NCBI RefSeq assembly: GCF_001613385.1
Contig: NZ_BDCG01000009.1
Span: forward strand, 62,001 to 126,000
Source of the DNA: Nocardia flavorosea NBRC 108225
GTDB taxonomy: Bacteria > Actinomycetota > Actinomycetes > Mycobacteriales > Mycobacteriaceae
Direction of reading: 5' to 3'
DNA: 64,000 nt
The position numbers and the translations under genes are program-made. The notes under the pieces are model-generated. The model did not search any database. It saw nothing but the letters and a program-made list of their open reading frames with translations, and was not told where the DNA came from. Below, one piece after another: positions 14,578 to 31,639 of this stretch (position 1 is its first letter; every line of letters starts with the position of its first letter).

Positions 14578-14653
14578 ACCCACCGCAACGACCGGGCGCA
14601 TAAGGGGCGCTGGTCATCGGCCGTCGAGAAACCTCGGCCGAACCGGCTGTGGG

Positions 14654-14908: not shown

Positions 14909-15008
14909 TGTGATTGTTCGAAGTCGTGTTCAGTGCTGACCTGCGGGTTCGGTTCTGGTTGAAGAGGACTTCGGTCATCGGCGTGTCTCGAACTCGGGTT
15001 CAGTAGCG
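14909..15008 (+). repeat. left end of transposon: terminal inverted repeat and inner repeat
   Basis: Terminal repeat at 14909-14935 with core TTCGAAGTCG then TTCAGTG. A diverged direct copy at 14986-15008 has core CTCGAACTCGGGTTCAGTAG. Such repeated sites near each end are the transposase-binding sites of Tn7/Tn5053-type elements. The region before tniA (to 15049) otherwise holds only its promoter. Confidence 0.82.
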
Positions 15009-15049
15009 TGCTTTTCGCTCGTACTCGTCTGCAGTAAGGGAATCGCGGG

Positions 15050-16723: not shown

Positions 16724-17631
16724 CCGTCGGTGAACCCCTCGACCTGTCGCATCTGCATCCGTCGGCGCAGCGGCCGGCGATGCTGCCGGATGCCGAGCGG
16801 ATCCAGTACGTGCGGGCGGATCGGTGGATCGGCTACACCCGCGCGAGGCAAGCGTTGGCCCGACTGGAGGGGCTGCTCACGATGCCGGATAAGCAGCGGA
16901 TGCCGAACCTGCTGCTCATCGGTGCGACGAACAACGGCAAGTCGATGATCATCGAGAAGTTCCGCCGTGACCACCCGCCGGTCTCGCATGCCGATAGGGA
17001 GGAGATCGCGGTGCTGACCGTGCAGATGCCGTCGGAGCCGTCGGTGTCGCGGTTCTATGTCGCGGTGCTGGCCGCGCTGGGGGCGCCGATCCGGCCGCGG
17101 GCGCCGCGGCTGGCCGAGCTGGAACAGCTGGTGCTGCGCCTGCTGCGGACCTGTGGTGTGCGGGTGCTGGTGATCGATGAGCTGCACAATGTGCTCGCCG
17201 GGAGGGGAGACACGCGCCGGGAGTTTCTGAACGTGCTGCGGTTTCTGGGCAACGAGCTGCGGATTCCGCTGGTCGGGGTCGGTACCCGGGACGCCTATCT
17301 GGCGATCCGTTCCGATCCGCAGCTGGAGAATCGGTTCGCGCCATTCACGCTGCCGCTGTGGGAGCCCGGGGACGAGGCGTGTGCGTTGCTGGCGAGTTTC
17401 GCGGCGTCGTTCCCGCTGCGGCGGTCTTCTCCGATCGCGACCGAGGAGATGGCGTCGTACCTGCTCACCCGGTGTGAGGGCACGATCGGGGAACTGACCG
17501 CGTTGCTGTCGGAGGCGGCGATCGCGGCGATCGAATCCGGGGAGGAGACGATCAACCAGCGCACCCTGCTGCTGGCGTCGTATGCGGGGCCGACCGAGCG
17601 GCGGCGGATGTTCGAACGCGAGCTGGCGTGA
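16717..17631 (+). CDS. tniB: TniB-type AAA+ transposition ATPase
   Basis: 304-aa AAA+ regulator of the TniB/TnsC class; it forms an ATP-dependent complex on target DNA and recruits the transposase. Walker A is GATNNGKS (residues about 69-76) and Walker B is VLVIDELHN (about 151-157). A sensor-like segment GVGTRDAYLAIRSDPQLENRF follows. The GTG at 16717 (or 16720, GTGA overlap) starts inside the end of tniA, and its stop overlaps the start of tniQ1, so translation is probably coupled through the set. Confidence 0.93.
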   Translation: MVTVGEPLDLSHLHPSAQRPAMLPDAERIQYVRADRWIGYTRARQALARLEGLLTMPDKQRMPNLLLIGATNNGKSMIIEKFRRDHPPVSHADREEIAVLTVQMPSEPSVSRFYVAVLAALGAPIRPRAPRLAELEQLVLRLLRTCGVRVLVIDELHNVLAGRGDTRREFLNVLRFLGNELRIPLVGVGTRDAYLAIRSDPQLENRFAPFTLPLWEPGDEACALLASFAASFPLRRSSPIATEEMASYLLTRCEGTIGELTALLSEAAIAAIESGEETINQRTLLLASYAGPTERRRMFERELA

Positions 17632-19003
17632 GCCAAGCGTCGCCGCGGCGCTGGCCACTGCACCCACGCCCGGGTGCGCTGGAATCGCTGTCGTCGTGGC
17701 TGGACCGGCTCGCCTCTACCAGGTGCCGGTGGCAGATCTGCTCGGCCCGAATCTCGGTGTACTGGTCGGCATCCGGAATGTTCTCGACGAAGATCCGCCT
17801 CCGGCGGTGTTCACCGCGCTTGCCGAGCGCACCGGCGTGCTGGCGGGGCAGGTGCGGGCGATGACGCTGCCCGGGTGGGTGCCGTGGTTGTTCGACGCTT
17901 ACCCGCTGCCCGAACGCGACGCTACCGACGGGTTCTACACCTATGTCCGCCAATATTCGGTGCTGCTGGCACCAGGGGAGGCGCCGCGTTTCGAGGTGAC
18001 CCGGCGTCGCTGGCGGGGCCCCTGGATTCCGCAGCACCCGGTGCGAAGATCGTGCCCGCAATGCGCGGCCGGGCCCGACCCGGCCCGCGCGCTGACCTGG
18101 CAGTTGCCGCTCACGGTGAGCTGCCTGCAACACCACTGCCGGCTGACGACCGACACCGAGACCTTCGCAGCCGAGGCAGCAGGCGAGCCCAACGAGGCGG
18201 TTCCGATCAGCGAACCAGTGACGACCCTGGACGGCTAAACCCGTCAAGCTCTCCTCGATGCCGCTGTTAGGTTGCCGGGCCGCACGGTGCACGCCGGGGT
18301 GTGGTTTCGGCTGCTGCGTTGTCTGCTCGACGAACTCAGCCTCGCCGGTTCCAGTATTTCCCGCAGATCGCAGCAGCTGCTCAAGCAAATCTGGGATGCG
18401 ACCGGTGCGCCGGTGCGGGCCGGGCTGGCGGTGTGGCAGCCGTACGAGAATCTGGAATGGCCGATCCAGGAGAAGCTGTTGACCGCCGCCGCGACAGCCC
18501 TGTCCCTGGCCGCCGACCGGCTCATTCAGCCTCGGGGGACTCTGGCCGGGTTGCTCATCGAACCGCGCCCTCTGCCCGTCTACGACGGCGACTCACCGTG
18601 GCCACCGGCACCCGACCAGGCCGAACGGGCCGGACGGAAGGTCATGGGGGCGATGAACGCCTGGTATGCGCGGGCCCGCGTCGATGCCGATGCCGCCCGC
18701 ACGATACTGCGGTTGTTGACCGAGTTCGATACGCGACCGGCGCACGCCACCCGGCACCGCGACGTGCTGATCGGTGAGGGTATCCCCTCGCGATTCCTGC
18801 GCAACGATCTGCTGAGGTACCCGGGCCGGCGCACCCGCGAGGAAACCGAAACCCTGCTGGTAGCCGAAGGGTTCGATCCCAGCGAGGTGGCCTATGAGCT
18901 GGACCGGTGCATCGACGAGACGGTAACGCGGGACGTGCCCGAGGTGGGTGTGCTGATCGACAACGACGAACTCGCCCGGATCCGCACCCGCCTGGAGTTG
19001 TGA
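17628..19003 (+). pseudogene. tniQ1: TniQ-family target-selection protein, first tandem copy, broken
   Basis: First of two tandem TniQ-type genes. From the GTG at 17628 it reads RRWPLHPRPGALESLSSWLD and then loses frame at 17714/17715. The paralogue next door has four extra bases (ACGG) at this point, so this is a 4-bp deletion. The continuing frame carries LPGWVPWLF and the zinc-binding pattern CPQC...C-x2-H, then meets TAA at 18236-18238 where the paralogue has a Tyr codon. After the TAA the same frame continues as QALLDAAVRLPGRTVHAGVW, ending at 19003 with a longer helical C-terminus than tniQ2. The two defects make it very likely inactive. Labels tniQ1 and tniQ2 are mine. Confidence 0.85.
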
Positions 19004-19006
19004 AGG

Positions 19007-20146
19007 GTGCCCCGATGGCCGATACACCCGCAACCGGGACCGATCGAATCGTTGTCGTCGTGGGTCGAACGGCTCGCCACGGTCTACCAGCTGCCGGTAA
19101 AAGTTCTGGTGGCGGACCTGTGCGCCGACCTCTCGCCGAACGTGCGCGCGTTCGCGAGTCGGCTGGACCATCCGCCGCGAGCGCTGCTGGTCGCGCTCGC
19201 CGACCGCACCGGCGTTCCGGTGCCCCGGCTGGTGACGATGACCCTGTCCGGGTGGGTGCCGTGGCTGTTCGAGAAACTGTGGCCGCGCGATTTCGAGCAG
19301 CAACAGCTGTTCGACAACTACGTGGGGCGCCACTCGGTGTTGCTGCTGCCCGGCGCCATCGAACGCGACATCGCCCGCCGCGCCAAATCCCGATGGGACG
19401 CGCCCTGGCTGCCGTACCCGCGCAGACCGCGGGCCTGCCCGGTCTGCGCCACCGCCCCGGACTCCGGCCGCGCCCTGATATGGGATCTGCCGCTGATGCT
19501 CAGCTGCGTCGAGCACCGCTGCCGCCTCGAACCCGCCGGCGCCGTCGCAGGCGGTGACGCCCCGGTGGTCGCCGTGGGCGAGACGGTCACCACGATGGAC
19601 GGGTACACCTACCAAGCACTCACCACCGGGCTGGTGCAGCTACCGGGCCGAACCGTGCACGCCGGGGTGTGGTTTCGGCTACTGCGCTGCCTGCTCGAAG
19701 AACTCTGCGCGTCCCGCCTGGCAGGCAGCGCCCGCACCGGCGCGGTCCTGGAAACCATCTGGGACACGATCGAACTCCCGATAGACGGCCGGATCGGGAT
19801 GCTGGAGCCGTATGAGTGCCTGGACCCCGAAGTCGCCGAAACACTGATGCGCGCCGCCGCATCGGCGCTGGCGCTGGCCGCCCAGCGGTCCATTCCGGCG
19901 GTTGGGGAACTCGGGCCCGCACTCGCCCCGGTGCCCTACCGGCCCGCGCCGCCAGGAGGTCCTGCCGTGCGACCCTCCACGCCGCCGCGGCGCGATCTGC
20001 TGAATCCGCCCCGTTGGTGGCCCGCAGCGCCGGTGCAGGCCGGACCACCACGGGACTGGTCACAGACCGCCCGCCGCTACGCGCTCAAGCGAGGGGTCCC
20101 GGCATGGGCTTTGCCCGACCTCGCCGGCCGACCCTGGCTCGAATAG
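19007..20146 (+). CDS. tniQ: TniQ-family target-selection protein, intact second copy
   Basis: 379-aa TniQ-family protein, the adaptor linking TniB/TnsC-type ATPases to the target. The N-terminus RWPIHPQPGPIESLSSWVER is the family signature. The block MTLSGWVPWLFEKLW follows, and zinc-binding cysteines appear as CPVCATAP then LSCVEHRCRLE. The C-terminal third is Pro-rich, ending with a basic helix (SQTARRYALKRGVPAWALPD). The GTG at 19007 starts 3 bp after the tniQ1 stop. It is a paralogue of tniQ1 with near-identical stretches (for example LPGRTVHAGVWFRLLRCLL), but a different C-terminal tail. Confidence 0.9.
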   Translation: MPRWPIHPQPGPIESLSSWVERLATVYQLPVKVLVADLCADLSPNVRAFASRLDHPPRALLVALADRTGVPVPRLVTMTLSGWVPWLFEKLWPRDFEQQQLFDNYVGRHSVLLLPGAIERDIARRAKSRWDAPWLPYPRRPRACPVCATAPDSGRALIWDLPLMLSCVEHRCRLEPAGAVAGGDAPVVAVGETVTTMDGYTYQALTTGLVQLPGRTVHAGVWFRLLRCLLEELCASRLAGSARTGAVLETIWDTIELPIDGRIGMLEPYECLDPEVAETLMRAAASALALAAQRSIPAVGELGPALAPVPYRPAPPGGPAVRPSTPPRRDLLNPPRWWPAAPVQAGPPRDWSQTARRYALKRGVPAWALPDLAGRPWLE

Positions 20147-20435
20147 CTCTCGCCGGGAAGGATTCTGTGCGGTCTACCAGTCGTTGCTGTCGAACGACAG
20201 CGGATCATGGCAGCTGGCGTGGAACGCCGCCATTGTCTCGGCTTCGGCCCTGGCCCGGGGGTATTGCCATTGAGCCAGTTGCGTGCGCGGTCGAGCATGC
20301 TCTGCTCGCGACGTAGTTCGGCGGCGCCGAGCTGAGCGGACGGCCCCGGAATCACAGACCAGGGCTGTCCTCGACCGCCACCCCGAGGGAGACGGTGCCG
20401 CAGCCTCACCGAAATCATGAGCCTCACCGGGTTCA
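20147..20435. other. gap between tniQ and tetR, possible small gene remnant
   Basis: Just under 300 bp. On the minus strand two frames together read like a short protein tail: AAELRREQSMLDRARNWLNG in one, ETMAAFHASCHDPLSFDSNDW in the other. This suggests a decayed gene with a frameshift near 20255. I cannot assign a family. No terminator hairpin was evident. Confidence 0.3.
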
Positions 20436-21074
20436 TCACGTCGCGGCACGGACTGCGGCGATCAGTATGTCCAGTTCCGCCTCGAAGATCTCGTCCCCCG
20501 TCACGGCCCGCAGCGCGGGCAGCAGCGCTTTGAGCCGCACCGCGTCGCGGCTGGTCTCGGCGGCCGCGAACAGCTCTGCGTTGCGGCCGGGCGTGGTTGG
20601 ATCACCGTGTGTCTCGCGGTGCGCGCGCCCGAGTACGAGATCCACGAAAATCAGGTAGCAGCGCGCCGCTTGACCGACGCCGAGCCCTGCTGCAGCGAGG
20701 ATGTCCGCGATCGTCTCGGCGATTCGGAGCCCACCGGCTCCGGCGTTGCCGTGGACCATGATGCGCTCCGCGAAGCCGGGGTAGGCCCGCAGTTCCTGGC
20801 GCATGCCGCGCGCGAGATGACGCAGCCGCTCGTCCCACGGCCCCATCAACGCCCTGTCCGGGATCACATGGTTCATCGCGATCTCGTCGGCGACCAGGTT
20901 CAGCAGCGCTTCCTTGTCCGGTACGTGCCGGTACAGGCCCATCCGTGATGCGCCGACCTCGGTGGCGAGGCGGCGGATGGTGAGCGCGTCGAGGCCCTCG
21001 GCACGCGCGATCCCGAGGGCGGCCTCGACGATCCGCCCACGCTCCAGGCTGCCCCACGGGCGTCGGTCGCTCAC
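20436..21074 (-). CDS. TetR-family regulator (TetR_C drug-type) within the transposon
   Basis: 212-aa TetR-type repressor starting at GTG 21074 (VSDRRPWGSLERGRIVEAAL). The helix-turn-helix reads ALTIRRLATEVGASRMGLYR followed by HVPDKEALLNLVADEI; this combination and the long ligand domain resemble tetracycline-repressor-like regulators of efflux pumps. The open frame to 21386 upstream overlaps the divergent MFS gene and is not used. A 21-bp palindrome 14 bp upstream is the likely operator shared with the MFS gene. Confidence 0.9.
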   Translation of the reverse strand: MSDRRPWGSLERGRIVEAALGIARAEGLDALTIRRLATEVGASRMGLYRHVPDKEALLNLVADEIAMNHVIPDRALMGPWDERLRHLARGMRQELRAYPGFAERIMVHGNAGAGGLRIAETIADILAAAGLGVGQAARCYLIFVDLVLGRAHRETHGDPTTPGRNAELFAAAETSRDAVRLKALLPALRAVTGDEIFEAELDILIAAVRAAT

Positions 21075-21087
21075 ACCCGGCAGCCTA

Positions 21088-21108
21088 CTTGCGGACAGCG
21101 TCCGCAAG
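21088..21108. promoter_or_regulatory. TetR operator palindrome
   Basis: Two 9-bp arms, CTTGCGGAC and GTCCGCAAG, separated by AGC give a perfect inverted repeat in the 60-140 bp between the divergent tetR and MFS genes. Form and place fit a TetR operator controlling both directions. Inferred, not tested. Confidence 0.75.
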
Positions 21109-21112
21109 ATGC

Positions 21113-21131
21113 TTAAGTAAGGCTCACCTAA
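21113..21131 (+). promoter_or_regulatory. DtxR/IdeR-type iron box
   Basis: TTAAGTAAGGCTCACCTAA matches the actinobacterial iron-box form TTAGGTTAGGCTCACCTAA at 17 of 19 positions. It lies 5 bp from the TetR palindrome, upstream of the MFS gene. This suggests repression by an iron-loaded DtxR/IdeR-type regulator and hence iron-limited expression of the exporter. Confidence 0.7.
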
Positions 21132-21216
21132 TAGAAAGGTGGGCATTGTGTGGGTCCTCGCGGGGCTGACCGCCCTCACGCTCTTTTTCCGGCGCAAGAT
21201 CATGAAAGGCCCCGGT

Positions 21217-22506
21217 ATGACAACGAGAATCACGCTCGCTGCGGTCCTGTTGGCGGCGTTCTCGATCAGCACTGCGCAGACAATCGTCATCGCGGCCCTC
21301 CCCGGGTTCGCGCGCGAATTCGGCGTCGCCACGACGACCACGGCGTGGGCACTGACCGCGTTCATGCTCGCCGCCGCCGTCGCCACGCCGATCGCGGGAC
21401 GGCTCGGCGACCTGTTCGGCTACCGGCGAATCATGCTGGTATGTCTAGGGTTCTTCGTCGTGGGCCTGCTGCTGTGTGCGCTGGCGAATTCGTTCCCGCT
21501 ACTTCTCGCGGGCCGCGCGGTGACGGGCGTCGCGGCGGGTGTGTTCCCGCTCGCGTTCGGGCTCGTGCGCCGCGAGGTGTCCCCGGCGCGCCTGCCGGGC
21601 GTGGTCGCGTTGCTGTCAGCGATGTTCGGGATCGGCGGTGCCGCGGGCATGCTCGCCGCCGGGCCGCTGCTCGACGTGTTCAGCTCCGCGTGGCTGTTCT
21701 GGCCGCTGCTCGTACTCGGTGCCGTAGCGCTAGTGCTGGTGATCCTGCTTCCCGGCGAGCCCGGCGCGGGCGGCCGGGTCGATCTCGCGGGCGCCGTCCT
21801 GCTCGGGCTCACGCTGGTCGCGCTGCTGCTGGGCATCAGCGAGGTGCGCCAGTGGGGCATCGGGCCCGCACTCGCGCTGTTCGCTCTGGCCGCCATACTG
21901 GCCGTCGCGTTTGCCGCCGTGGAACTGCGCACGCACCAGCCACTCGTCGACGTGCGGCTGCTCGGCCATCGCGCGGTGGCCATGACAAACCTGGCCACGG
22001 TCATCATCGGCGCCGCGATGTTCGGTGTAGTCACGGTGATTCCGTTGCTGGTTCCGCAGAACCGGATCGCGGTCGCGCTGCTGCCGATGGTTGTGACGAT
22101 GCTGATCGCAACGCCGCTCTCCCCCCGGCTCGGGGGCCGGATTGCGGTGCGGACAGGCGCGATGCTGGCGATCGTCTCCTGCATCGCGTTGGCGCTCTGG
22201 CACAACGAGTTGTGGCAGGTCTGCATGGTGAGCCTAATCCTCGGCGCGGGCTACGGGCTGGCGTTCGCGGCGTTCGGCACGCTCGTCGTGGAGGTCGTCG
22301 AGACTCGGCAGACCGGGGAGGCCACCGGCGTCAACACGATCGCCCGGACAGCTGGCGGTGCGCTCGGGGCGCAACTCGCGGCGGCACTGAGCATCAGCGG
22401 CTTCGGGCCGACATTCTGGGTACTCGCCGGGATCGCCGTCGCCGCGCTGCTGGTCACGAGCACGCTGCCGAAACGTGCGCTGGCAACCTCGCCCTCACCG
22501 GTATGA
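21217..22506 (+). CDS. MFS efflux transporter (DHA-type)
   Basis: 429-aa major-facilitator exporter from the ATG at 21217 (MTTRITLAAVLLAAFSISTA). The frame is open to GTG 21139, which would add 26 residues. Motif A appears as GRLGDLFGYRRIM and motif C-like glycines as LLSAMFGIGGAAGMLAAGPL. After IPLLVPQ the chain goes straight to NRIAVALLPMVVTML, where relatives have about 10-15 more residues, so a small internal deletion is possible. Substrate unknown; the adjacent TetR gene suggests a drug-like inducer, the iron box a siderophore-like or iron-linked substrate. Confidence 0.85.
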   Translation: MTTRITLAAVLLAAFSISTAQTIVIAALPGFAREFGVATTTTAWALTAFMLAAAVATPIAGRLGDLFGYRRIMLVCLGFFVVGLLLCALANSFPLLLAGRAVTGVAAGVFPLAFGLVRREVSPARLPGVVALLSAMFGIGGAAGMLAAGPLLDVFSSAWLFWPLLVLGAVALVLVILLPGEPGAGGRVDLAGAVLLGLTLVALLLGISEVRQWGIGPALALFALAAILAVAFAAVELRTHQPLVDVRLLGHRAVAMTNLATVIIGAAMFGVVTVIPLLVPQNRIAVALLPMVVTMLIATPLSPRLGGRIAVRTGAMLAIVSCIALALWHNELWQVCMVSLILGAGYGLAFAAFGTLVVEVVETRQTGEATGVNTIARTAGGALGAQLAAALSISGFGPTFWVLAGIAVAALLVTSTLPKRALATSPSPV

Positions 22507-22644
22507 GACGCAGGCTACCTCTGCGGCCAGCGCAACGAACTCGATCCCGCCGGATGCAACTGCCGGTGAAACGCTCGACGTGATGCTGGTCGCGGCGATC
22601 CGCAGCAGGCCACGGAGATCGATCTTCCGGGCGGTAGATATCAC

Positions 22645-22944
22645 GTGGTGACCGACTCGTTCGCCATGTTCGCCGCTGAGCTGGGTAAAGCCGTGAAGGC
22701 GGGGTGCGCACCAACGGGGTTCACCGTGGTGCTGCGGGGCTATTCATGGGCCGACTCGGAACCAACCCGTCCGCGCGAGCGCCGACTCATCGTGAGCGAC
22801 CTGAGCACCGATGAACTCACCGCACTGGCCGCCGGGTCGGTGACCGCGCTGGACAAGGTGATCACCCGCGCTTTCCATGCCCGCAACTCCCCGCCAGATT
22901 TCACCTATGAGGGCACCAGGGCATTCAGTTTCCAGACCTGCTGA
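22645..22944 (+). CDS. small hypothetical protein
   Basis: 99-aa protein from GTG 22645 (or 22648), with mixed charged helical and beta character (FAMFAAELGKAVKAGCAPTG, then ERRLIVSDLSTDELTALAAG). No family is recognised. It ends 2 bp before the convergent resolvase stop. Upstream, 22515-22570, a frame reads YLCGQRNELDPAGCNCR before a stop, possibly the tail of another decayed small gene. Confidence 0.5.
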   Translation: MVTDSFAMFAAELGKAVKAGCAPTGFTVVLRGYSWADSEPTRPRERRLIVSDLSTDELTALAAGSVTALDKVITRAFHARNSPPDFTYEGTRAFSFQTC

Positions 22945-22946
22945 TC

Positions 22947-24203
22947 TCATCCCACGCTGCCGTGGTCCGGGCAGACCGGCCCGGCGTCGGTGACACGCCA
23001 GCGGCGCACCGCCAGCCAACGGCGGACCAGTGACGGGATATCGCCGGTCTCGCGGAGTTCGGTGGCGTAGACGCCGGTGAGCAGGGGCCCGCCGCAGTCG
23101 CAGGCCGCGCATTCGATGTCGGTGATCGGCACGTCGCGGGGTCGGCAGCGCTGGCAGTGGCGGCGTTCGACCATGCCGCCGTCGTCTGCCGGTTCGAGCC
23201 AGACGACCTGGATGTCTTCGAGTAGCCGTCCCCGCTCGGAGGTGTCGGAGGTGGTGTAGCCGCACATCGGGTTCGGGCATACCGCAGGCGGTTCGGGCAG
23301 GTTGCGCTGTGCGGTCTGCTTGAGCCGCCACACCAGATTCGACCGCCCGTGAACGAGGCCGTTTGTCGTGCTGCTGGTTTCGTACCGCGCATCGTCTACG
23401 ACGGCCGTGGGAGCAGCGGGTTTCGGACGGTCCGGCGCCGGTTCGTGATCGGCCCGGGTGATATCGGACCGGTCATCCGGATCGCCGATGGCCCTGCGGG
23501 TTTCCGGTTCCGAAAGCACCGATACCGAAGCCGCCGCGGCGGCGGGGACCGGCACGGCGTCGGCGGTCTGCCCTGAGGGGCTCACCGCTACCGGCGCGGC
23601 AGCTGGTGTTGTGGCCGTGGGGCCGGAGTGGGGCCGGGCGCCGATGCGGGTTTTGTCGAGGTGGCCGTAGAGGGTGCCGCGTTTGACCCCGAGGATGTCG
23701 GCGATCTGCTGGACGGTGTGGCGGCCTTCATCGTAGAGCCGCTGGGCTTGTTCGGCCTGGTGGGTGGTGAGTTTCGGCCGTCGGCCGCCTTTGCGGCCGC
23801 GGGCGCGGGCGGCTTCGAGTCCGTCGCGGGTGTTGGCCAGGATCAGTTCCCGCTGCAACTCCGCCAGCACCGAGAGCATGCCGAACATGGCGCGGCCTTC
23901 GGCGGTATCGGTGTCGATGCCCTGCTCGACGACCTTCAACCCGATCCCGCGCTCGCGCAGCTGCGCGCCGAGAGTGATCAGGTGCAGCACCGACCGGCCG
24001 AGCCGGTCGAGGCGGGTGATGACGATCGTGTCGCCGCGACGCGCGAGAGTGAGCACGAGATCGAGTTTCGGTCGCGAGGCCTTCGCGCCACTGGCAGTAT
24101 CGATATGGACATCGGCCGGGTCGACGCCGGCGCGGCGCAGGGCGTCGATCTGGTGTGCGGGGTTCTGGTCGGCGGTCGACACCCGCCCGTAGCCGATCAA
24201 CAT
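22947..24203 (-). CDS. extended serine resolvase/recombinase
   Basis: 418-aa small-serine-recombinase-type protein. The catalytic domain starts MLIGYGRVSTADQNPAHQID with the nucleophile Ser at residue 9, followed by VITRLDRLGRSVLHLI and AEGRAMFGMLSVLAELQREL. A C-terminal HTH follows (GRRPKLTTHQAEQAQRLYDE, then TVQQIADILGVKRGTLYGHL). This much equals a complete resolvase (about 200 aa). Another 200 residues follow: a Pro/Ala/Asp-rich linker, then a Cys-rich module (CPNPMCGY, HCQRCRP, ECAACDCGG, GPVCPDHG) suggesting zinc ribbons. ATG 24203 is chosen because the alternative ATG 24239 lies in the res-like repeats. Likely resolves cointegrates. Confidence 0.85.
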   Translation of the reverse strand: MLIGYGRVSTADQNPAHQIDALRRAGVDPADVHIDTASGAKASRPKLDLVLTLARRGDTIVITRLDRLGRSVLHLITLGAQLRERGIGLKVVEQGIDTDTAEGRAMFGMLSVLAELQRELILANTRDGLEAARARGRKGGRRPKLTTHQAEQAQRLYDEGRHTVQQIADILGVKRGTLYGHLDKTRIGARPHSGPTATTPAAAPVAVSPSGQTADAVPVPAAAAASVSVLSEPETRRAIGDPDDRSDITRADHEPAPDRPKPAAPTAVVDDARYETSSTTNGLVHGRSNLVWRLKQTAQRNLPEPPAVCPNPMCGYTTSDTSERGRLLEDIQVVWLEPADDGGMVERRHCQRCRPRDVPITDIECAACDCGGPLLTGVYATELRETGDIPSLVRRWLAVRRWRVTDAGPVCPDHGSVG

Positions 24204-24227
24204 GGTGTCGAAATTAGCCGAAATCGG

Positions 24228-24327
24228 GTTTGCCGACATTGTTTTCCGGCACGGGTTTCCGACACTCGCGTCCTGGGCTTTCTCCCGCTCACGCAAGGTT
24301 GTCGGCAAACGATCGTTTTCCGACAAC
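24228..24327. promoter_or_regulatory. res-like recombination site
   Basis: Five copies of a half-site close to GTTTkCCGACA lie upstream of the resolvase start. They are at 24229-24239, 24241-24251 (GTTTTCCGGCA), 24255-24264, and as the two arms of a 30-bp palindrome at 24298-24327 (GTTGTCGG ... CCGACAAC, 14 of 15 pairs matched, centre GATC). The palindrome is the best candidate for the crossover site; the others could be accessory resolvase sites and also overlap the resolvase promoter. Confidence 0.72.
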
Positions 24328-24486
24328 CAGCATTCGGGCCGAACACGCTCACCAATCCGGTTTACAGCGAACCTCATCTATCAACATGTTCCCGGTCAAA
24401 GCTGCTCTTATTCATCGTTTGTAATCCGATTTGAATCGATGTGACACTGTTAATACCACGCCAGGTCTACACGAGGAGTGTGCTGT

Positions 24487-25194
24487 ATGGCTGTCCGGTT
24501 CAAGCTCGGCTATTACTCACCAGTCACAGGCGACCCGCTGAATAGGGAGTATGTCGGCTATTTCCCGCGTATGACCGAAGATGAGGCATGGACAGCGGGC
24601 CGGGGCGTATGGAAGGCCAACAAGGAACGGCTAGCCCGAGAGAAGTTCGCCCTCATCATCGGTGACGGCCAGGTGTGCGCCGTTGCCGAGATCCACGGCG
24701 TGTCCGTGCATGAGGATCGGGTCGCCGTCGTCGGCGAGGTGCTGACCGAAGGTCACCCGGTTCGCGACGAGTGGATCGGCAAACAGGATCCGGTGGTCAA
24801 TGCCTCGCAGAACCCGGTCGGCTACTGCGAGCTCCCGGAGGAAGCCGAGTTCCGTGAGCGGCCCTGCGGGTGCGGGTGCGGGGAGATCAGCACCCGCGAT
24901 TTCCTGCCCGGCCACGACGTGCGCGCCTTCCAGGACCGGGTGCGGCGCATGTTCGCCGGATCGGCCCTGGAGTTCTTCCGTTGGGTCGACCGCATGGGCG
25001 CCGAACACGGCCTTCCTCTACTGAACAACCCCACCGGCGCCGCGGCACAGCCCGATGACTACCGCAAGACACCGACTCCAGTGTCCGGCGAACAGCAGCC
25101 GCAGGAGCCGGGAACCTCCCACGCTGGGCTCCCCGATTCCGAAGAGCCGTTGCCCGGCAACGAATCCCGCGCGGCTGTCAGCGCACACGGCTAG
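24487..25194 (+). CDS. hypothetical protein with CGCGC zinc-knuckle-like motif
   Basis: 235-aa protein from ATG 24487, with GAGGAG at 24472-24477 as ribosome-binding site; GTG 24478 is an in-frame alternative. The N-terminal about 115 residues form an alpha/beta domain (RFKLGYYSPVTGDPLNREYV ... GKQDPVVNASQNPVGYCELP). A short motif RPCGCGCGEISTRDFLPGHD then resembles small Cys-rich motifs seen in actinobacterial mobile-element proteins; the acidic, Pro-rich tail looks disordered. No enzyme family is recognised. It sits between the res-like site and the Tn3 transposase relic, where the body of a tnpA gene would be expected. Confidence 0.6.
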   Translation: MAVRFKLGYYSPVTGDPLNREYVGYFPRMTEDEAWTAGRGVWKANKERLAREKFALIIGDGQVCAVAEIHGVSVHEDRVAVVGEVLTEGHPVRDEWIGKQDPVVNASQNPVGYCELPEEAEFRERPCGCGCGEISTRDFLPGHDVRAFQDRVRRMFAGSALEFFRWVDRMGAEHGLPLLNNPTGAAAQPDDYRKTPTPVSGEQQPQEPGTSHAGLPDSEEPLPGNESRAAVSAHG

Positions 25195-25379
25195 ACATCC
25201 CAGGTCGCGCGCTGGCCGAGCTACGCGGCCAGGGCTACCCGGTGCTAGATGCGGATGTGGGGCTCTCGCCGTTTGTCCGGACCCACATCGGCATCGACGG
25301 GCACTACAGCTTTCATCTACCCGATCTCGGTGGAACACACCGGCCGTTGCGTGATCCCGACTCTCGTGACGACGAATGA
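25194..25379 (+). pseudogene. C-terminal relic of a Tn3-family transposase (tnpA)
   Basis: Sixty codons in one open frame without a start: DIPGRALAELRGQGYPVLDA, VGLSPFVRTHIGIDGHYSF, HLPDLGGTHRPLRDPDSRDDE, then TGA. This is the characteristic end of Tn3-family transposases (..SP..R.HIN..GRY.F.LP....LRPLRDP). The catalytic domain is missing. About 45 bp downstream GTTTTCGGAGACG (25423-25435) resembles part of a Tn3-family terminal repeat, weakly. Confidence 0.8.
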
Positions 25380-25475
25380 GGCATGTCTTCGAGGTGTCGG
25401 GCTGCGGGGACATGCCGGACGGTGTTTTCGGAGACGTGGGGATGCGGGACTGTACCGGAAGGCGCCGACAGCGCT
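25380..25475. other. short gap with possible Tn3-type end relic
   Basis: Ninety-six bp between the tnpA relic and the DUF5313 gene. The 13-mer at 25423-25435 matches the inner part of the widespread end sequence GTCTCAGAAAAC (opposite strand) except one base, but the outer GGGG/CCCC bases do not fit. Otherwise featureless. Confidence 0.3.
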
Positions 25476-25856
25476 TCAGCGCCTGTGGCGTCGTTCGTAG
25501 GCCTCGCGTTCCGCGGCGTGTTTCTGGCGCTCTCGGGCATCGGCCAGGGCGGGGTCGAGTCCGTGCTTGGCGAGGCGGTGGCGGCGGTAGACGTACATGA
25601 GCGCGGTGGTGAAGTAGATCAGTGGCAGGTACAGCAGCGCCATCATCGCCAGCCCCATCCACAGCGGTCCCGGAATGAGCAGGAACACGCACAGCGGCGC
25701 GATAATCGGCAGCAGGATCCGGAGATGGTATCGGCGGGCTGCGCCGGGGCCGGTGAGATCGTCGATCACCCACTGGTGCATCGACGGTGGCAGGGTCGCA
25801 CCGGCGATGTAGCGCACGCGCTGGGTCAAGGTCGGCGTGGCCGGTTCACCGCTCAT
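25476..25856 (-). CDS. DUF5313-family membrane protein
   Basis: 126-aa protein typical of the actinobacterial DUF5313 family: an N-terminal RVRYIAGATLPPSMHQWVID, DLTGPGAARRYHLRILLP, two adjacent membrane segments (residues about 47-90), then YRRHRLAKHGLDP and a basic, charged tail ending YERRHRR. Function unknown. Its start overlaps the sulP stop by 4 bp (ATGA), so it is the last gene of the arsR-pckG-sulP operon and probably acts with the transporter or in the membrane alongside it. Confidence 0.82.
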   Translation of the reverse strand: MSGEPATPTLTQRVRYIAGATLPPSMHQWVIDDLTGPGAARRYHLRILLPIIAPLCVFLLIPGPLWMGLAMMALLYLPLIYFTTALMYVYRRHRLAKHGLDPALADARERQKHAAEREAYERRHRR

Positions 25857-27499
25857 CGAATTCCTCCGACCGGTTCGGGAAGATCGCCGCGTGCGTGGGC
25901 GATCGCGTCGACCGTGTTCCCGAAGATCGCCTTCTCGCCCGCAGCGGGCAGCGCACCGATCGCGGTGAGGCGGCGGAGGTGATCGGCGCGGAGCCCGGAC
26001 ATGAGGACGGTGATGTTGTGGTGTTCGAGTTTGCGGATGGAGTCTTTGAGGACGAGTGCTCCGGTGGTGTCGAGGGCGGTGATGCCAGACATGCGCAGGA
26101 TGACGACTTTCACGTCGGAGACGTCGGCCAGTTCGAGCAGGAACCGGTGCGCGGCGGCGAAGAACAGCGGGCCCTCGATCCGGTAGGCGATGATGTGGTC
26201 GCGTAGCAGGTCGTGTTCTTCGGTGAGGTGATCTCCTTCGTCGAGGGGGACTTGGTCCAGGCGGGCTTCGCGGGCCACCGAGCGCAGGGCCAGCAGGACC
26301 GCGATCCCGACACCGATAGCGACAGCAGTGACCAGGTCGAAGGCGACAGTGGCGGCGAAGGTGATCACCATGATCGCGGCGTCACCGCGGGAAGCGCGGG
26401 CAATCGCGGCCAGGGACGCGGTTTCGACCATCCGCACTGTGGTGGCCAGCAGCACACCGGCGAGGGCGGCCAGCGGTATCTGGGCGACCAGTGGTGCGGC
26501 GAGGTAGAGCAGGGCGGCCAGAACGACTGCGTGGGTGACGGCGGCGAGGCGGGTGCGGGCGCCGGAGCGGACGCTGACGGCGGTGCGGGCGATCGCGCCG
26601 GTGGCGGGGACTCCACCGACCAGTGGTGCGGCGATATTGGCCAGGCCCTGGCCGAACAGTTCGCGATCGGGATTGTGGCGGGTGCCCACCGACATCGAAT
26701 CCGCGGCGGTAGCCGACAGCAGTGATTCCAAGGCGGCGAGCGCGGCCACAGCCAGTGCGGGCGCAATCAGCGAGGCGAGCTGGCCGGGGTCGAGGAACCC
26801 GAGGGAGGGCGCGGGCAGCCCCGCGGGCAGGGCCCCGATACGGGTGAGGTCGATCCCGGCGAGTCCGGCCACAGCAGTGGCGACCGCGACCGCTAGGAGC
26901 GCGAAAGGCAGTTTGGGCAGGTAGCGGCCGCCGATCAGCACGGCGGCGGCGACCAGCAGGGCGGTGATCGGCGGGGCAGGGTCGGGGTGGTCGAGGTAGC
27001 GGCCGACCGCGTCGGAAGCCAGCTGCCACATCTTCTCGCCCTCGGCCTCGCCGACACCGAGGGCAGACGGGAACTGCTGCAACGCGATCACCACCGCGAT
27101 ACCGGCGGTGAATCCCTCGATCACCGGCGCCGGCATATAGCGGACCGCGCGACCGACACCGGCCGCAGCGAGAACAATCAGCACCACACCGGCCAACAAT
27201 CCGACGGCGAGGACGCCGGGACCGCCGTGTTCGGCCACAATCGGCAGCAACACCACGGTCATGGCACCGGTAGGACCGGACACCTGGAACCGGGAGCCAC
27301 CGAACACCGCGGCCACCACACCGGCGATGATCGCGGTGGCCAGACCCGCAGCGGCGCCGAGACCGGAACTGATCCCGAAACCGAGTGCCAACGGCAACGC
27401 GACCAGCGCGACGATGACACCGGCGAGCAGGTCCGGGCCCGGGCGGCGCAGCGCCGGCGTCCAGTCCGCCCGGGTGGGCAGCAGCGCACGCAGAGTCAC
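25853..27499 (-). CDS. SulP-family anion transporter with STAS domain
   Basis: 548-aa SLC26/SulP transporter. The N-terminus has the family signature [20 protein letters not shown] followed by multiple membrane spans, and [18 protein letters not shown] in the anion-binding region. A C-terminal STAS domain (about residues 435-540) includes [20 protein letters not shown]. SulP proteins carry sulfate, bicarbonate or dicarboxylates; sequence alone does not settle it. No fused carbonic anhydrase. It overlaps pckG by 4 bp and DUF5313 by 4 bp, so all three are co-translated. The pairing with PEP carboxykinase makes bicarbonate or a dicarboxylate an attractive but unproven substrate. Confidence 0.92.
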
Positions 27500-29370
27500 G
27501 ACGCCCCGGCGGTGCCGGCGGGGCGGGCCGGGGTGTGGGCCAGGCGGTTCTTCAGCGCGGCGAGCTGATCACACAGCGGCCCAGGGAGCGTGTCGGCGCC
27601 GATGCCGGCGTACCAGTCCTCGATGGAGACGACCTCGTCGGCCCATTCGTCGTGGTGGACTTCGAGCGCGGCCCGTGCCGAGCGTTTGTCGGCGTCGGAG
27701 AATCCGGACAGGTCCAGCGAGTGTGGCATCGGGACATAGCCGATCGCGGTGGCGTCGGCTGCCGCGGTGCCCTCGATCCGTTCCAGCGCCCATTTCAGCA
27801 CGCGCACGTTGTCACCGAATCCCGGCCACAGGAACCGCCCGCCGGCGTCGCGGCGGAACCAGTTGACCTGGAATATCTTCGGCAGCTTGGCTGGGTCCGC
27901 TGTGTTGCCGAGGCGCAGCCAGTGCGCGAAGTAGTCGCCGACGTGATATCCGAGAAACGGCAGCATCGCCATCGGGTCCCGACGCACCACACCGACCTGC
28001 CCCGCTGCGGCGGCGGTGGTTTCCGAAGACAGCACCGAGGCGGTGAACACCCCGTGGGTCCAGTCGAAGGATTCGGCGATCAATGGGATCGTGGTGGCGC
28101 GGCGGCCGCCGAAGAAGATCGCCGACAGCGGCACCCCGGCCGGGTCGTCCCATTCCGGGGCAACCGACGGGCACTGCTCGATCGGGGTGCAATACCGCGA
28201 GTTCGGGTGCGCGGCAGGCCCGGTCGTGGTCTCTGGAGTCCAGTCGTTGCCATGCCAATCAGTGAGATGCTGCGGTGGGGTGTCGGTGAGTCCTTCCCAC
28301 CACACGTCACCGTCGTCGGTGAGAGCGGTGTTGGTGAAGATCGAATTGCCCTGCTCGATGGTGGCGATCGCGTTCGGGTTGGTCTTCGCGCCGGTGCCCG
28401 GGGCGACACCGAAGAACCCGGCCTCCGGGTTCACCGCATACAGCCGGCCGTCGGGACCGAACCGCAACCAGGCGATATCGTCGCCGACCGTTTCGGCCTT
28501 CCAACCCTCCAGAGCGGGTTCGAGCATGGCGAGGTTGGTTTTGCCGCAGGAGGACGGGAACGCCGCCGCCACATAGTGCGTGCGGCCCTGCGGGGAAGTG
28601 AGTTTGAGGATCAGCATGTGTTCGGCCAGCCACCCCTCGTCGCGGGCCAGAACCGAAGCGATCCGCAGGGCGAAGCATTTCTTGCCCAGCAGGGCGTTGC
28701 CGCCGTAGCCGGAGCCGTAACTCCAGATGGTGCGGGATTCGGGGAAATGCGCAATATATTTCGTGTGGTCACACGGCCACGCCACATCCGCCTGCCCGGG
28801 GCTCAGCGGCGCACCGACCGAGTGCAGACACCGGACGAACTCCGCGTCGTCGCTGAGCTGGTTCCACACCGGTGCTCCGGAGCGGGTCATGATCTGCATC
28901 GAGACCGCCACGTATTCCGAATCGGTGATCTGCACACCGTATTTCGGGTCCTCGGCGTCGAGTGGGCCCATGCAGAACGCGATCACATACATGGTGCGCC
29001 CGGCCATCGCGCCGCGATAGTGCTCGGTCATCACCGTGCGCATATCGACCGGATCGACCCAGTTGTTCGTCGGTCCCGCATCCCGCTTGTCTCGTGAGCA
29101 GATGAAGGTGCGGTCTTCCACCCGCGCCACGTCTTCGGGATCGGAGACACACCAGAACGAGTTCGGCTTCCCCGACAACGCCACGAAGGTGCCCTTGTCC
29201 ACCAAGCGAGCGGTCAACCGATCCCACTCCTGGCGCGACCCATCGCACCACACCACATCCTCGGGCGCGGTCAGATCGGCGACCTCGGCCACCCACGCCA
29301 AGACTTGCGCATGATCAGTGGGCGCGGCCACCGGCGCCATTGCCGGCGCGGGCATGTGATCGGTATCCAC
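27496..29370 (-). CDS. pckG: phosphoenolpyruvate carboxykinase (GTP)
   Basis: 624-aa GTP-dependent PEP carboxykinase, interconverting oxaloacetate and PEP plus CO2. Visible motifs: the P-loop region with reactive Cys [16 protein letters not shown] (about residues 270-285), [20 protein letters not shown], and [18 protein letters not shown] in the GTP site. Length is normal for the family (about 605-625). GTG 29370 is chosen 7 bp after GGAGGA; GTG 29373 is also in frame. It is the second gene of the leftward operon, about 110 bp after arsR. All motifs inspected are intact, so it is probably active. Unusual as transposon cargo. Confidence 0.96.
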
Positions 29371-29482
29371 CACTATCTCCTCCGGGAACAACTAGATGAC
29401 TATGTAGGAAAATATGCAAACAGGAACCCCGCGACTCTCCCCACCCGATACGCGCCGCGAGGATCGCCGAGAGCCCGAACCG
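29371..29482 (-). promoter_or_regulatory. arsR-pckG intergenic region with repeated TTTGCATA motif
   Basis: On the minus strand TTTGCATA occurs at 29420-29413 and a good ribosome-binding site (GGAGGA) at 29383-29378. The same TTTGCATA occurs just upstream of arsR on the other strand. A second promoter or operator for pckG is possible. Confidence 0.45.
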
Positions 29483-29812
29483 TCAGGCGGGCTGTTCCAG
29501 AACCTCCGCCTGACCCGCCACCACCCCGGTCAGGATGGCCCGCGCCGCGGTCAGCAGCTGCGCCACCTGCGGCGAGGTCAGCTCATAGGTCACCGACAAA
29601 CCCTCCCGGCGACTGGTGATCAACCCCGCTCGCCGCAAAACTGCCAGCTGTTGCGACAAATTCGCCGCCTCGACATCGATATCGGCCAGCATCTCCGACA
29701 CCGCATGCTCCCGCTGACTGAGCAACTCCAGCACCCGAATCCGCACCGGATGCCCCAACGTCTTGAAGAACTCCGCCTTCATCTGATATAAGGGCCTGCT
29801 CGATCCCGGCAT
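29483..29812 (-). CDS. ArsR-family winged-helix regulator without metal-site cysteines
   Basis: 109-aa ArsR/SmtB-type regulator (from ATG 29812; 120 aa from ATG 29845). The winged-helix core reads MKAEFFKTLGHPVRIRVLEL, then EMLADIDVEAANLSQQLAVL and RRAGLITSRREGLSVTYEL. The alpha-3 ELCVCDL metal site of ArsR/SmtB is here QREHAVSEML, with no cysteine anywhere in the protein, so a classical thiolate metal sensor is unlikely. ATG 29812 is preferred because ATG 29845 lies inside the putative operator. First gene of the cargo operon; the regulator probably represses it. Confidence 0.88.
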   Translation of the reverse strand: MPGSSRPLYQMKAEFFKTLGHPVRIRVLELLSQREHAVSEMLADIDVEAANLSQQLAVLRRAGLITSRREGLSVTYELTSPQVAQLLTAARAILTGVVAGQAEVLEQPA

Positions 29813-29835
29813 CTTCCCGCCTTTCGGCCAACCTG

Positions 29836-29855
29836 CTATTTGCATAGATTAGCAA
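29836..29855. promoter_or_regulatory. putative ArsR operator
   Basis: AT-rich island upstream of arsR in GC-rich DNA: CTATTTGCATAG (arms CTAT/ATAG) overlapping TTGC-N8-GCAA. TTTGCATA is shared with the region before pckG. ArsR-family sites are often imperfect AT-rich palindromes of this sort. Weak arms, so moderate confidence. Confidence 0.45.
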
Positions 29856-30122
29856 GCAGATAACCTGCCGGGTCCGCCACAACCCACATCGAGTCGTATC
29901 TCACATCGTGAGCGCCGTCTCGGTGCCACACAGCACGCTGGGAGTACCCCCACACGGTGACACCCACCGACCTGCCACCGCTGGCATCCGACAGATCCAA
30001 GCGAATCCGTCACGGAGAAGAGGTCCGCGTCGCCACCGCCGAACCTGCAGACATTCATGCAGTGGATCCCCTCAATGCAGAAACGCATCGACAAACTTGC
30101 GGCCCTTACCGACCCCCCGCCC
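29856..30122. other. right-end non-coding region of the transposon
   Basis: Between arsR and the right end there is no convincing complete gene. A rightward open frame ends at 30127 with FMQWIPSMQKRIDKLAALTD; it has coding-like composition but begins without a credible start, perhaps a relic. The arsR promoter must lie at the left part of this stretch. Confidence 0.4.
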
Positions 30123-30171
30123 CGGTGAACAGGACTTCGAAAATCACTGAAGGCGACTTCGAAACCTGACA
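30123..30171 (-). repeat. right end of transposon: terminal inverted repeat and inner repeat
   Basis: Read inward from 30171 the end is TGTCAGG followed by TTTCGAAGTCGCCTTCAGTG (to 30145), matching the left end at 21 of 27 positions. A second copy, TTTCGAAGTCCTGTTCACCG, follows directly at 30142-30123. Two tandem transposase-binding sites are inferred. Confidence 0.85.
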
Positions 30172-30176
30172 ACCCC
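30172..30176. repeat. right target-site duplication (ACCCC)
   Basis: Copy of the ACCCC found at 14904-14908, directly after the ...CCTGACA end of the element. Confidence 0.92.
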
Positions 30177-30431
30177 GGCACGTTTGAACACCGGCCGGAT
30201 ATCCCAGGCGATATTGCTGACCACCGCGATCGGCATCCCGGCCGCGGCCACCGCGGTCAGCGCGGCCTCCGTATCGGGGAACGGCCGCCAGGCCTCCGCC
30301 GACAACAGTTGTTCGTACAGATACTCCGGATTACCGACCCCGGACCCGCGCAGCACCGCCAGATACAGTTCGCGATGCAGCGGCGGGTCCAGATCCCGGC
30401 GTCCCCATTCGTCGCGCAGCCGCTCGGGAGA

Positions 30432-30447
30432 CCGGCCGGCCGGCCGG
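30432..30447. repeat. CCGG tetranucleotide tandem tract (four units)
   Basis: Four CCGG units inside the HAD gene. With three units the hydrolase frame is open (TAPAGRSPERL); with four it is shifted. Slipped-strand expansion is the simplest explanation. Confidence 0.8.
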
Positions 30448-30673
30448 CGCCGTCATCCGCCGTACCACCTCGGCCTGCGCTTCACCGTCGAGAGGTTCCC
30501 CGTCGCGTCCGACCAGCCCGTCCAGTTCCGGCTCGAACCTGAAGAGGGTCCCGGAGAAGTCGAACAGCACACCGCGGACAGTCATACCGGCCAGGTTACG
30601 GAGAACCCACCGCGCGCAGACAAGCGGTTGCCGGCGGCCGTGGGGCGCCGTTCGCACCGGGTCCGGCAGAACC

Positions 30674-31639
30674 TCAGGGCACGAGGTCGCGGAGGCTGTC
30701 GAGCAGGAAACTGTTCACCGCGGCGGTGGCTTCCAGCTGGACCAGATGCCCGGCTTCGGGGACACACCGGACCTCCCGCAGATCCGGTAGCGCCGCGCGC
30801 ATCGTGTCGAGCGGGTCGCGTCCGCTGAAACCCTCCATATCCGGGTCGTTCTCCCCGTAGACGAAATACACCGGCGCGGTGGGAGCGGCGTGCGCGTATT
30901 CGGCGGTGAGCTCCCAGTTGCGGTCGAGGGCGCGGTACCAATTCAGTCCGCCGGTGAAACCGGTGCGTTCGAATTCGGCGGCGAGGACGTCGAATTCCGC
31001 CTCGGGAAGCCACGACCACGGAAATTGCGGGGCCCGCGGCAGCGCGTCTATATAGCGCATACCCGGCGGGTTCTGCCACACATCGAGGTAGTGGTAGTCG
31101 CCGCTCAGCGCGTAGTACACCCGGGACAGGAATTCGCGCGGCTGTTCGGCGAGATGGGCGTCGGCGACGCCGGGTTCCTGGAAGTACTGCATATGCAGGA
31201 AGTGCCGTTCGGCCATTTTCGCCCAGTAATATCCGGGGGGTTTCGGTGAGCGCGGCGCGAACGGATTGTTCAGCACGATCAGGCCGCGTACCCGTTCCGG
31301 TGCCCGCATCCCGAGTTCCCACAGCAGGGCAGCACCGAAGTCGACACCCACGAATACCGCTCGTTCGGCACCGATATCGTCGAGCAACGCCAGCAGATCA
31401 CCGATCACGGCCCGGTTGGTGTACTCGTCGACCGCCGCGGGGGCGTCGGTGCGGCCGGCGCCGCGCAGGTCGGGAGCGATCGCCCGGTATCCGGCTGCCG
31501 ACAGGGCGGCGAGCTGCCGCTGCCAGACGTACCCGGTATGCGGAAATCCGTGACAGAAGATCACCGGATCGCCCTGCCCCTGTTCGGTGATGTGCATCCG
31601 CACACCCCCGGTATCGATGAACCGGTGTATCGGCGCCAC
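30674..31639 (-). CDS. alpha/beta-hydrolase, epoxide-hydrolase-like
   Basis: 321-aa alpha/beta-hydrolase. The oxyanion segment is IFCHGFPHTGYVWQRQ; the nucleophile elbow VFVGVDFGAALLWEL has Asp as expected for epoxide hydrolases and haloalkane dehalogenases rather than Ser. The acid lies in VYFVYGENDPDM and the catalytic His in PEAGHLVQLE near the end. A lid region with conserved tyrosines (VYYALSGDYHYLDVW) favours epoxide hydrolase. It is divergent from the SDR gene with a 54-bp gap that holds a KstR-like site. Confidence 0.88.
   Translation of the reverse strand: MAPIHRFIDTGGVRMHITEQGQGDPVIFCHGFPHTGYVWQRQLAALSAAGYRAIAPDLRGAGRTDAPAAVDEYTNRAVIGDLLALLDDIGAERAVFVGVDFGAALLWELGMRAPERVRGLIVLNNPFAPRSPKPPGYYWAKMAERHFLHMQYFQEPGVADAHLAEQPREFLSRVYYALSGDYHYLDVWQNPPGMRYIDALPRAPQFPWSWLPEAEFDVLAAEFERTGFTGGLNWYRALDRNWELTAEYAHAAPTAPVYFVYGENDPDMEGFSGRDPLDTMRAALPDLREVRCVPEAGHLVQLEATAAVNSFLLDSLRDLVP

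Follow-up and report, generated by a model that had tools for sequence, protein, structure and literature searches.

An arsR-pckG-sulP-DUF5313 cassette carried by a TniABQ-type transposon in Nocardia flavorosea, a candidate mobile unit of the PEP-oxaloacetate node

The enzymes of central carbon metabolism are usually viewed as fixed chromosomal functions, and transposon cargo as a matter of resistance or defence. The subject here is a 64,000-nucleotide stretch of the genome of Nocardia flavorosea NBRC 108225 (contig NZ_BDCG01000009.1, positions 62,001 to 126,000 of the forward strand; the whole stretch is called the window, and coordinates refer to it unless a locus is named). In it a TniABQ-type transposon carries a cassette of four genes, arsR, pckG, sulP and a gene for a DUF5313 protein, such that an enzyme of the phosphoenolpyruvate (PEP)-oxaloacetate node, the GTP-dependent PEP carboxykinase (PEPCK), travels together with a carrier and a hypoxia-type regulator of its own. 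TniABQ elements, PEPCK, SulP carriers and Rv0081-type ArsR regulators are all known kinds, and the new part is their combination as mobile cargo. In a search of full-text literature, none of the titles and abstract openings listed describes arsR-pckG-sulP as mobile cargo, a weak negative in that subscription papers lay mostly outside its scope.

The closest described elements belong to the Tn5053/Tn402 family, whose features are TniA, TniB, TniQ, a serine resolvase, inverted ends starting with TGT and a 5-bp target duplication. The window element shares all of these and differs in its central-carbon cassette, its additional TetR-MFS cargo and a second TniQ reading frame. The closest described counterpart of the regulator is in the Rv0081-Rv0088 hypoxia locus of Mycobacterium tuberculosis, which has the same type of ArsR; among 30 relatives of the window ArsR (the best locus per genome from an order-level search), 10 have a NuoB-like gene with a CNGCE motif downstream. 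Unlike that locus, the window regulator has pckG-sulP-DUF5313 as its presumed targets; neither a Nuo/Hyc-type gene nor a DosR box was recognised here. The carrier belongs to the fold family of DauA and BicA, with which it shares a STAS domain, and has a DauA-like anion-site loop, but it scores below the equivalog cut-offs of both. The enzyme resembles known PckG (NF003253) in its full length, its score above the family cut-off and its nucleotide-site residues, and is set apart by its separate clade, its mobility, its own regulator and three extra invariant cysteines relative to core Nocardia copies. A last parallel is artificial: in Escherichia coli strains engineered for succinate, the pck gene reportedly encodes an ATP-type enzyme. 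According to the available part of PMC4667291, these strains likewise combine a PEPCK with a carrier of bicarbonate, either SbtA or the SulP protein BicA, but they lack a regulator.

A first-pass annotation of the window had placed the cassette inside a mobile element, and the boundaries of that element are now defined. In three relatives (L060, L061 and L062), blastn detects an empty site at which the homologue of position 14908 joins that of 30172 with a 5-base overlap. Because of this junction, and because ACCCC is duplicated on both sides (14904-14908 on the left and 30172-30176 on the right, 5 bp each), the element can be assigned to 14909-30171, a total of 15,263 bp inserted within a HAD-hydrolase-like gene. 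Its terminal repeats, TGTGATTGTTCGAAGTCGTGTTCAGTG at 14909-14935 on the plus strand and TGTCAGGTTTCGAAGTCGCCTTCAGTG at 30145-30171 (read on the reverse strand), are inverted and start with TGT, the two ends beginning TGTGATTGTTCGAAGTCG... and TGTCAGGTTTCGAAGTCG..., respectively. TniA, TniB and TniQ occur together with this 5-bp target duplication and these ends, which places the element among the TniABQ transposons, and the empty sites prove the cassette to be genuine transposon cargo. A repeat search did not mark the element ends, the 25 longest pairs among the matches listed being matches of 70-83%, and no RNA element reached the gathering threshold within 14000-31000.

Four minus-strand genes make up the cassette (25476-29812), as the first-pass annotation had described them, including both 4-bp overlaps. 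The Rv0081-type, cysteine-free ArsR regulator (29483-29812) is followed after a 91-bp gap by the GTP-dependent PEPCK, here called PckG-II (27496-29391), then by a SulP/SLC26 anion transporter with a STAS domain (25853-27499) and by the small DUF5313 membrane protein (25476-25856), whose gene overlaps the sulP stop by 4 bp. The overlaps read GTGA between pckG and sulP and ATGA between sulP and the DUF5313 gene. Judging from the sequence, pckG probably starts at a GTG slightly inside the listed TTG (29391), where GGAGG precedes it. The likely start of arsR is 29812, preferred over the longer open reading frame (ORF) that reaches 29845 because the latter overlaps the operator discussed below. A literature search on DUF5313 gave nothing relevant.

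The host has two pckG genes, that of the window and, on contig C20, a core gene 67% identical to it, so that the second chromosomal copy proposed as a check is indeed present. The name PckG-II stands for matches of 73-100% identity to the window enzyme among the matches listed for 148 Nocardia genomes, in which the other group reaches at most 68%. PckG-II so defined occupies 73 loci in 69 of the 148 genomes (47%), and at 68 of these loci a cassette-type SulP lies within 1 kb, the exceptions being those of G107, G049 and G043, the G027 copy of 73% identity and one of the pair in G040. This arrangement of PckG-II and SulP exceeds chance. The gene order arsR-pckG-sulP holds in all 19 Nocardia loci first opened (L033-L051), with DUF5313 next in 13 of them; in L077 and L110 DUF5313 is placed between pckG and sulP. 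From the SulP side, 13 of 81 cassette-type rows, one of them a contig-end piece, are without an adjacent PckG-II. Among the matches listed for 200 genomes of the order, those of at least 73% come only from its three Nocardia genomes; outside Nocardia, the 27 genomes of the same family have one pckG match apiece, and two occur in some genomes from other families, none above 69%.

Phylogeny and genomic context both separate PckG-II from the core enzyme. In a PckG tree of 82 rows (quick mode), the 39 PckG-II rows, whether they come from Nocardia or from plasmids or assemblies of Rhodococcus, all group in one clade (SH-aLRT 100, stem 0.38), and 13 core Nocardia PckG fall outside it, which answers the phylogenetic question raised at first pass. 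Flanks were compared in 13 genomes, with the cassette genes masked, over stretches of up to 20 kb, and scored for at least 1 kb shared. Just 13 of 78 locus pairs share that much around PckG-II (median 0), against 78 of 78 around core pckG in the same genomes (median 8,068 bases). In N. carnea (G003), three contigs each hold a PckG-II copy, and the site corresponding to the window insertion is empty. It is very unlikely that PckG-II is simply an accessory paralogue that arose by duplication on a Nocardia chromosome and was captured by a transposon on a single occasion. Its presence in nearly half of the sampled Nocardia, with a single copy near a close relative of this tniA, would fit that history, but the scattered flanks beside a syntenic core control, the plasmid copies, the long-stemmed clade shared with Rhodococcus plasmids and the genome with three copies all argue against it. 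The refutation proposed at first pass therefore fails, since the host has a separate core pckG.

The association of the block with this particular tniA, which had also been suggested, is not general, and the cassette is common in the genus. TniA matches of at least 72% identity occur in 12 genomes (13 rows; any TniA match in 37 of the 148), and just one of the 73 PckG-II loci, the host's own, shares a contig with one, so a general tie to this tniA was rejected. With one copy of 73 near this tniA, several vehicles must carry the cassette; it travels on TniABQ transposons and plasmids, and probably on further vehicles. The same right end and cassette are found at another site in N. rhamnosiphila (L034 in G031, at 12547), and the left end of this related element was not found in L034 or L065. 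A sister transposon in G010 (L190) has a TniA about 91% identical and an identical left end, and no pckG or sulP was seen in the 20 kb examined around it. On Rhodococcus and Prescottella plasmids, SulP is within 1 kb of pckG in 14 of 18 records and at 6 kb in one, and three have no SulP row; some of these records are near-identical, and in three pckG was matched in two or three pieces. One such plasmid, typed as conjugative, encodes arsR, an extra hypothetical protein, pckG, sulP and DUF5313. The cassette is absent from the three plasmid pckG loci opened in Sphingobium, Tsukamurella and Arthrobacter. The Sphingobium plasmid, which is conjugative, has a 65% identical pckG divergent from a STAS-less SulP-like gene, followed by an alkylphosphonate-utilization (PhnA-type) gene (L056, 10191-13782), possibly an independent pckG-SulP pairing.

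We tentatively regard the unit, with somewhat less than even confidence, as a mobile, self-regulated cassette of the C3/C4 (PEP-oxaloacetate) node for low-oxygen or CO2-rich conditions; by analogy with its relatives, it would probably retune carbon flow under oxygen shortage. In this model, ArsR would repress its own promoter through a TTGC-N8-GCAA dyad and release it when oxygen is short, or when CO2/formate metabolism changes. PckG-II would then carboxylate PEP, with oxaloacetate and GTP as the products, and so supply the reductive branch of the tricarboxylic acid cycle. SulP would move the matching anion, which could be bicarbonate or a C4-dicarboxylate (succinate, for example), and DUF5313 might serve it as an accessory subunit. 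In the plasmid versions, a malic-fold protein could act as malate sensor or scaffold and carbonic anhydrase as CO2 supplier for the same node. In a more ambitious form of the proposal, transposons and plasmids would hand on an entire C3/C4 programme, made up of an Rv0081-type sensor with an operator of its own, a PEPCK working as a carboxylase, a SulP for bicarbonate or C4-dicarboxylates and, on plasmids, the malic-fold accessory. With it, strict aerobes that have run out of oxygen could ferment toward succinate while fixing CO2, a possibility that we consider rather unlikely.

The regulator provides the link to hypoxia. The best solved relative of the window ArsR is Rv0081 of M. tuberculosis (110 bits), the next being of the BigR type (49 bits). 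The cysteine ligands of thiol-based metal sensors of the ArsR/SmtB kind are lacking, there being no cysteine in the 109-residue protein. Rv0081 itself is described, in the part of PMC6177252 available, as an autorepressor induced early in hypoxia and without a defined metal site. Upstream of arsR, at 29840-29855, lies a putative operator dyad, TTGCTAATCTATGCAA on the arsR strand. The pattern TTGC-N8-GCAA, with TTGT and ACAA variants accepted, occurs ahead of arsR in 88 of 112 upstream stretches, which include loci fetched twice and close kin, whereas 200 mononucleotide shuffles averaged 0.5 such stretches and never exceeded 3; after stretches at least 75% identical were merged, it remains in 74 of 90 (shuffle mean 0.4, maximum 2). 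The strict form, TTGCNAANNTNNGCAA, occurs a single time in the 7.44-Mb host genome, at the arsR promoter, compared with five occurrences of a reversed control pattern. Within 1.5 kb of the 30 order-level ArsR loci were found SulP in 7, the malic-fold protein in 2, a PckG of 85-100% identity in 3 (all Nocardia, the host included) and a 37% PckG piece in 1.

PckG-II is full length, scores 951 bits against the NF003253 cut-off of 504 and has both Pfam domains. In 17 aligned sequences the P-loop cysteine C282 and residues F512 and F520 are invariant and F525 is at least 90% conserved; a nucleotide-binding role for this Phe triad is given in the accessible portion of PMC4370629. Redox cysteines that affect M. 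tuberculosis Pck, according to the extract of PMC5279734 at hand, are C273, C391 and C397. These correspond to C282, C401 and C407 of the window protein (alignment read by eye), which are conserved in 39 of 39 PckG-II and equally in core copies. Cysteines 49, 81 and 188 are a different matter, being invariant in the 39 PckG-II and replaced by alanine in 13 core Nocardia copies, although roughly 70% of a further 27 copies from Mycobacteriales also have a cysteine at position 81. These extra cysteines, together with plasmid neighbourhoods that carry spare housekeeping genes (thiolase, KasA, AcpM, GroEL), could point to a spare enzyme that survives thiol-reactive or metal stress poisoning the core one. 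This is the least probable of the alternatives, and we give it very little weight: added cysteines would raise rather than lower thiol sensitivity, and the ArsR is without cysteine.

The carrier passes the Pfam cut-offs for both the Sulfate_transp core and STAS. An alignment spanning its residues 23-534 of 548 shows 32% identity with E. coli DauA, and its anion-site loop resembles DauA's AIARSAANVRAGA and not that of BicA. In a profile search the best solved match is BicA, full-length DauA being absent from the list. The window protein has Glu at the position aligned to an Asp of BicA that we take to be a Na+ ligand.

Genes that accompany the cassette elsewhere were counted around the best 80 of at least 522 confirmed SulP loci, with ArsR and PckG scored within 3.5 kb and other genes within 8 kb. 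The 45 Nocardia loci have ArsR in 43, PckG in 38, DUF5313 in 17, the malic-fold gene in 5 and carbonic anhydrase in 2, and the 15 Rhodococcus/Hoyosella loci have them in 14, 5, 5, 4 and 1, respectively. On seven Rhodococcus/Prescottella plasmids that were opened, arsR is followed by a hypothetical protein of about 295 residues and then by pckG. All seven have DUF5313 further downstream; in five of them sulP separates it from pckG, in the other two sulP is missing there, and carbonic anhydrase lies upstream of arsR in four. Searches with the hypothetical protein against Pfam and NCBIfam were negative, and PDB sequences yielded no useful hit. A fold search with its AlphaFold model (pLDDT 83, ten rows) returned malic enzymes in all 50 listed rows (best E 1.6e-11, TM about 0.7), three of which are titled just PH1275, a protein called malic enzyme in another row; by profile it is collinear with two malic enzymes, weakly (E 0.0057, probability 6.5%). 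Because the malic-enzyme motifs NLED and GAGAAG are not visible in it by reading, the modelled protein may be a sensor or scaffold. The first-pass suggestion of a C3/C4 carbon or CO2/bicarbonate module gains from this malic-fold partner, from the carbonic anhydrase of the plasmids and from the hypoxia-type regulator.

Other genes recur around the carrier as well. YjdM/PhnA zinc-ribbon genes are found near arsR-sulP in Nocardia and Streptomyces (L094, 11645-11995, and 20 other loci), the YjdM cluster lying near SulP in 21 of the 80 loci. Such genes are rare in Nocardia, with 9 in 8 of 40 genomes, and in 4 of the 9 cases they lie within 2 kb of a cassette PckG or SulP; a literature search on YjdM/PhnA found nothing useful. 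Further recurrent neighbours in the 80 loci, counted with no background rate, are a GAF histidine kinase (8), universal stress proteins (7) and Nuo/Hyf-type genes (6-9). In two Nocardia species, two genes of the SulP-carbonic anhydrase fusion type closely follow the cassette (L108, 12505-17147, where the domains were checked, and L123, 13375-18014).

A number of observations weigh against a low-oxygen C3/C4 cassette, and some concern the coherence of the unit. In the remaining 20 of the 80 SulP loci, which belong to neither Nocardia, Rhodococcus nor Hoyosella, ArsR is present in 19 and PckG in none (one locus, L144, is cut off upstream); in 10 of the 15 Rhodococcus/Hoyosella loci SulP is without an adjacent pckG, and 10 of the 148 Nocardia genomes have a cassette-type SulP but no PckG-II. 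SulP is so often without pckG that the pairing cannot be obligatory. From ArsR in 19 of 20 and PckG in 0 of 20 outside these genera, arsR-sulP looks like the older association, which pckG would have joined in Nocardia and Rhodococcus. Two Nocardia loci (L196, 3394-5715, and L197, 7118-9232) have kept arsR and sulP and lack pckG, L196 retaining a short pckG-like remnant; they look like losses, and show pckG to be separable from the arsR-sulP pair. This wider association of ArsR with SulP could instead suggest anion or pH homeostasis. In that case arsR-sulP would be a stress unit for bicarbonate or proton-anion transport, to which PckG-II was added because making oxaloacetate uses up CO2 when acid or high CO2 is the stress. 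The window SulP does score 247 bits on the BicA model, on which true DauA scores 176, and of three Streptomyces plasmids opened, one has a carbonic anhydrase at a distance of about 4 kb from SulP and the other two do not. With the BicA cut-off (880 bits) far away and Glu in place of the BicA Asp, we judge this explanation decidedly unlikely.

Further points against the low-oxygen reading come from the regulator and the carrier. No DosR box was found in 45 upstream stretches (at least 7 of 20 mismatches, and 10 in the window), compared with what we take to be its consensus, and DosR control through such a box was rejected. The dyad is present in only 13 of the 30 order-level ArsR loci, and the malic-fold protein was not found in the host by a search that had no positive control. 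SulP misses the cut-offs of the DauA equivalog NF008660 (333.5 versus 614 bits), the BicA equivalog NF050096 (247 versus 880) and the sulP subfamily TIGR00815 (278 versus 380). All seven SulPs scored, controls included, rank DauA above BicA; because this holds in every control, the score order decides nothing on the substrate, and the attempt to distinguish bicarbonate from dicarboxylate by NCBIfam scores was dropped.

Finally, there is the direction of the reaction. The PEPCK reaction is reversible, and each step of the mechanism proposed above has backing in the literature from relatives alone, as does the link to hypoxia. In the portions of the papers available, reducing conditions favour oxaloacetate synthesis by M. 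tuberculosis Pck (PMC4370629), and anaerobic M. tuberculosis secretes succinate and incorporates bicarbonate carbon, the authors stating that there was as yet no evidence for Pck or malic enzyme as the incorporating enzyme (PMC3188519). In E. coli, pck or ppc and a bicarbonate carrier raised succinate production solely when combined, the best partner being SbtA and not BicA; the productivity of the bicA plus pck strain was no higher than that of the empty-plasmid strain (PMC4667291, in part). Furthermore, transposon sequencing in M. intracellulare ties hypoxic growth to pckA, a need read as gluconeogenesis by its authors in the accessible part of PMC12726824. That result favours a gluconeogenic booster, in which SulP imports C4-dicarboxylates and PckG-II makes PEP from oxaloacetate for growth on aromatics, lipids or organic acids, with ArsR sensing a metabolite and not oxygen. 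The DauA-like identity and anion-site loop of SulP, so unlike BicA, would suit such a role, as would the catabolic genes and thiolases held by the Rhodococcus/Prescottella cassette plasmids. The booster has no need, however, of carbonic anhydrase neighbours or Rv0081-type control, and gluconeogenesis would already be covered by the core pckG; we consider it unlikely, although it is the strongest of the alternatives. If the low-oxygen C3/C4 cassette is the right description, low-oxygen carbon flow in these aerobes would be a transferable trait, and the direction of mycobacterial-type PEPCK in hypoxia, an open question, would become testable in non-tuberculous species.

The rest of the transposon consists of its mobility genes and a second cargo. 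On the plus strand are the Mu-type DDE transposase TniA (15050-16723), the ATPase TniB (16717-17631), a first TniQ-like region (17582-19003) that reads as a single frame split into the ORFs 17582-18238 and 18272-19003, and a second TniQ (19007-20146); the 18272-19003 ORF has no Pfam match and by eye resembles the C-terminal part of the second TniQ. A divergent pair (20436-22506) forms the second cargo of the same transposon, a TetR-family regulator ORF on the minus strand (20436-21386), whose true start is probably further in, and an MFS transporter on the plus strand (21139-22506). A serine resolvase (22947-24377, minus strand) would have a TniR-like role. Beyond the right end, the interval 30172-30657 (minus strand) was assigned by reading to half of the interrupted HAD-hydrolase-like gene. 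Between the resolvase and the cassette lies a plus-strand backbone protein of no assigned family (24478-25194), which adjoins the tni genes in the sister elements L190 and L191 too. In N. carnea/N. flavorosea (L036, 10169-17683, and L037, 5603-13116), the resolvase and this protein adjoin a cassette whose orientation is reversed relative to the window.

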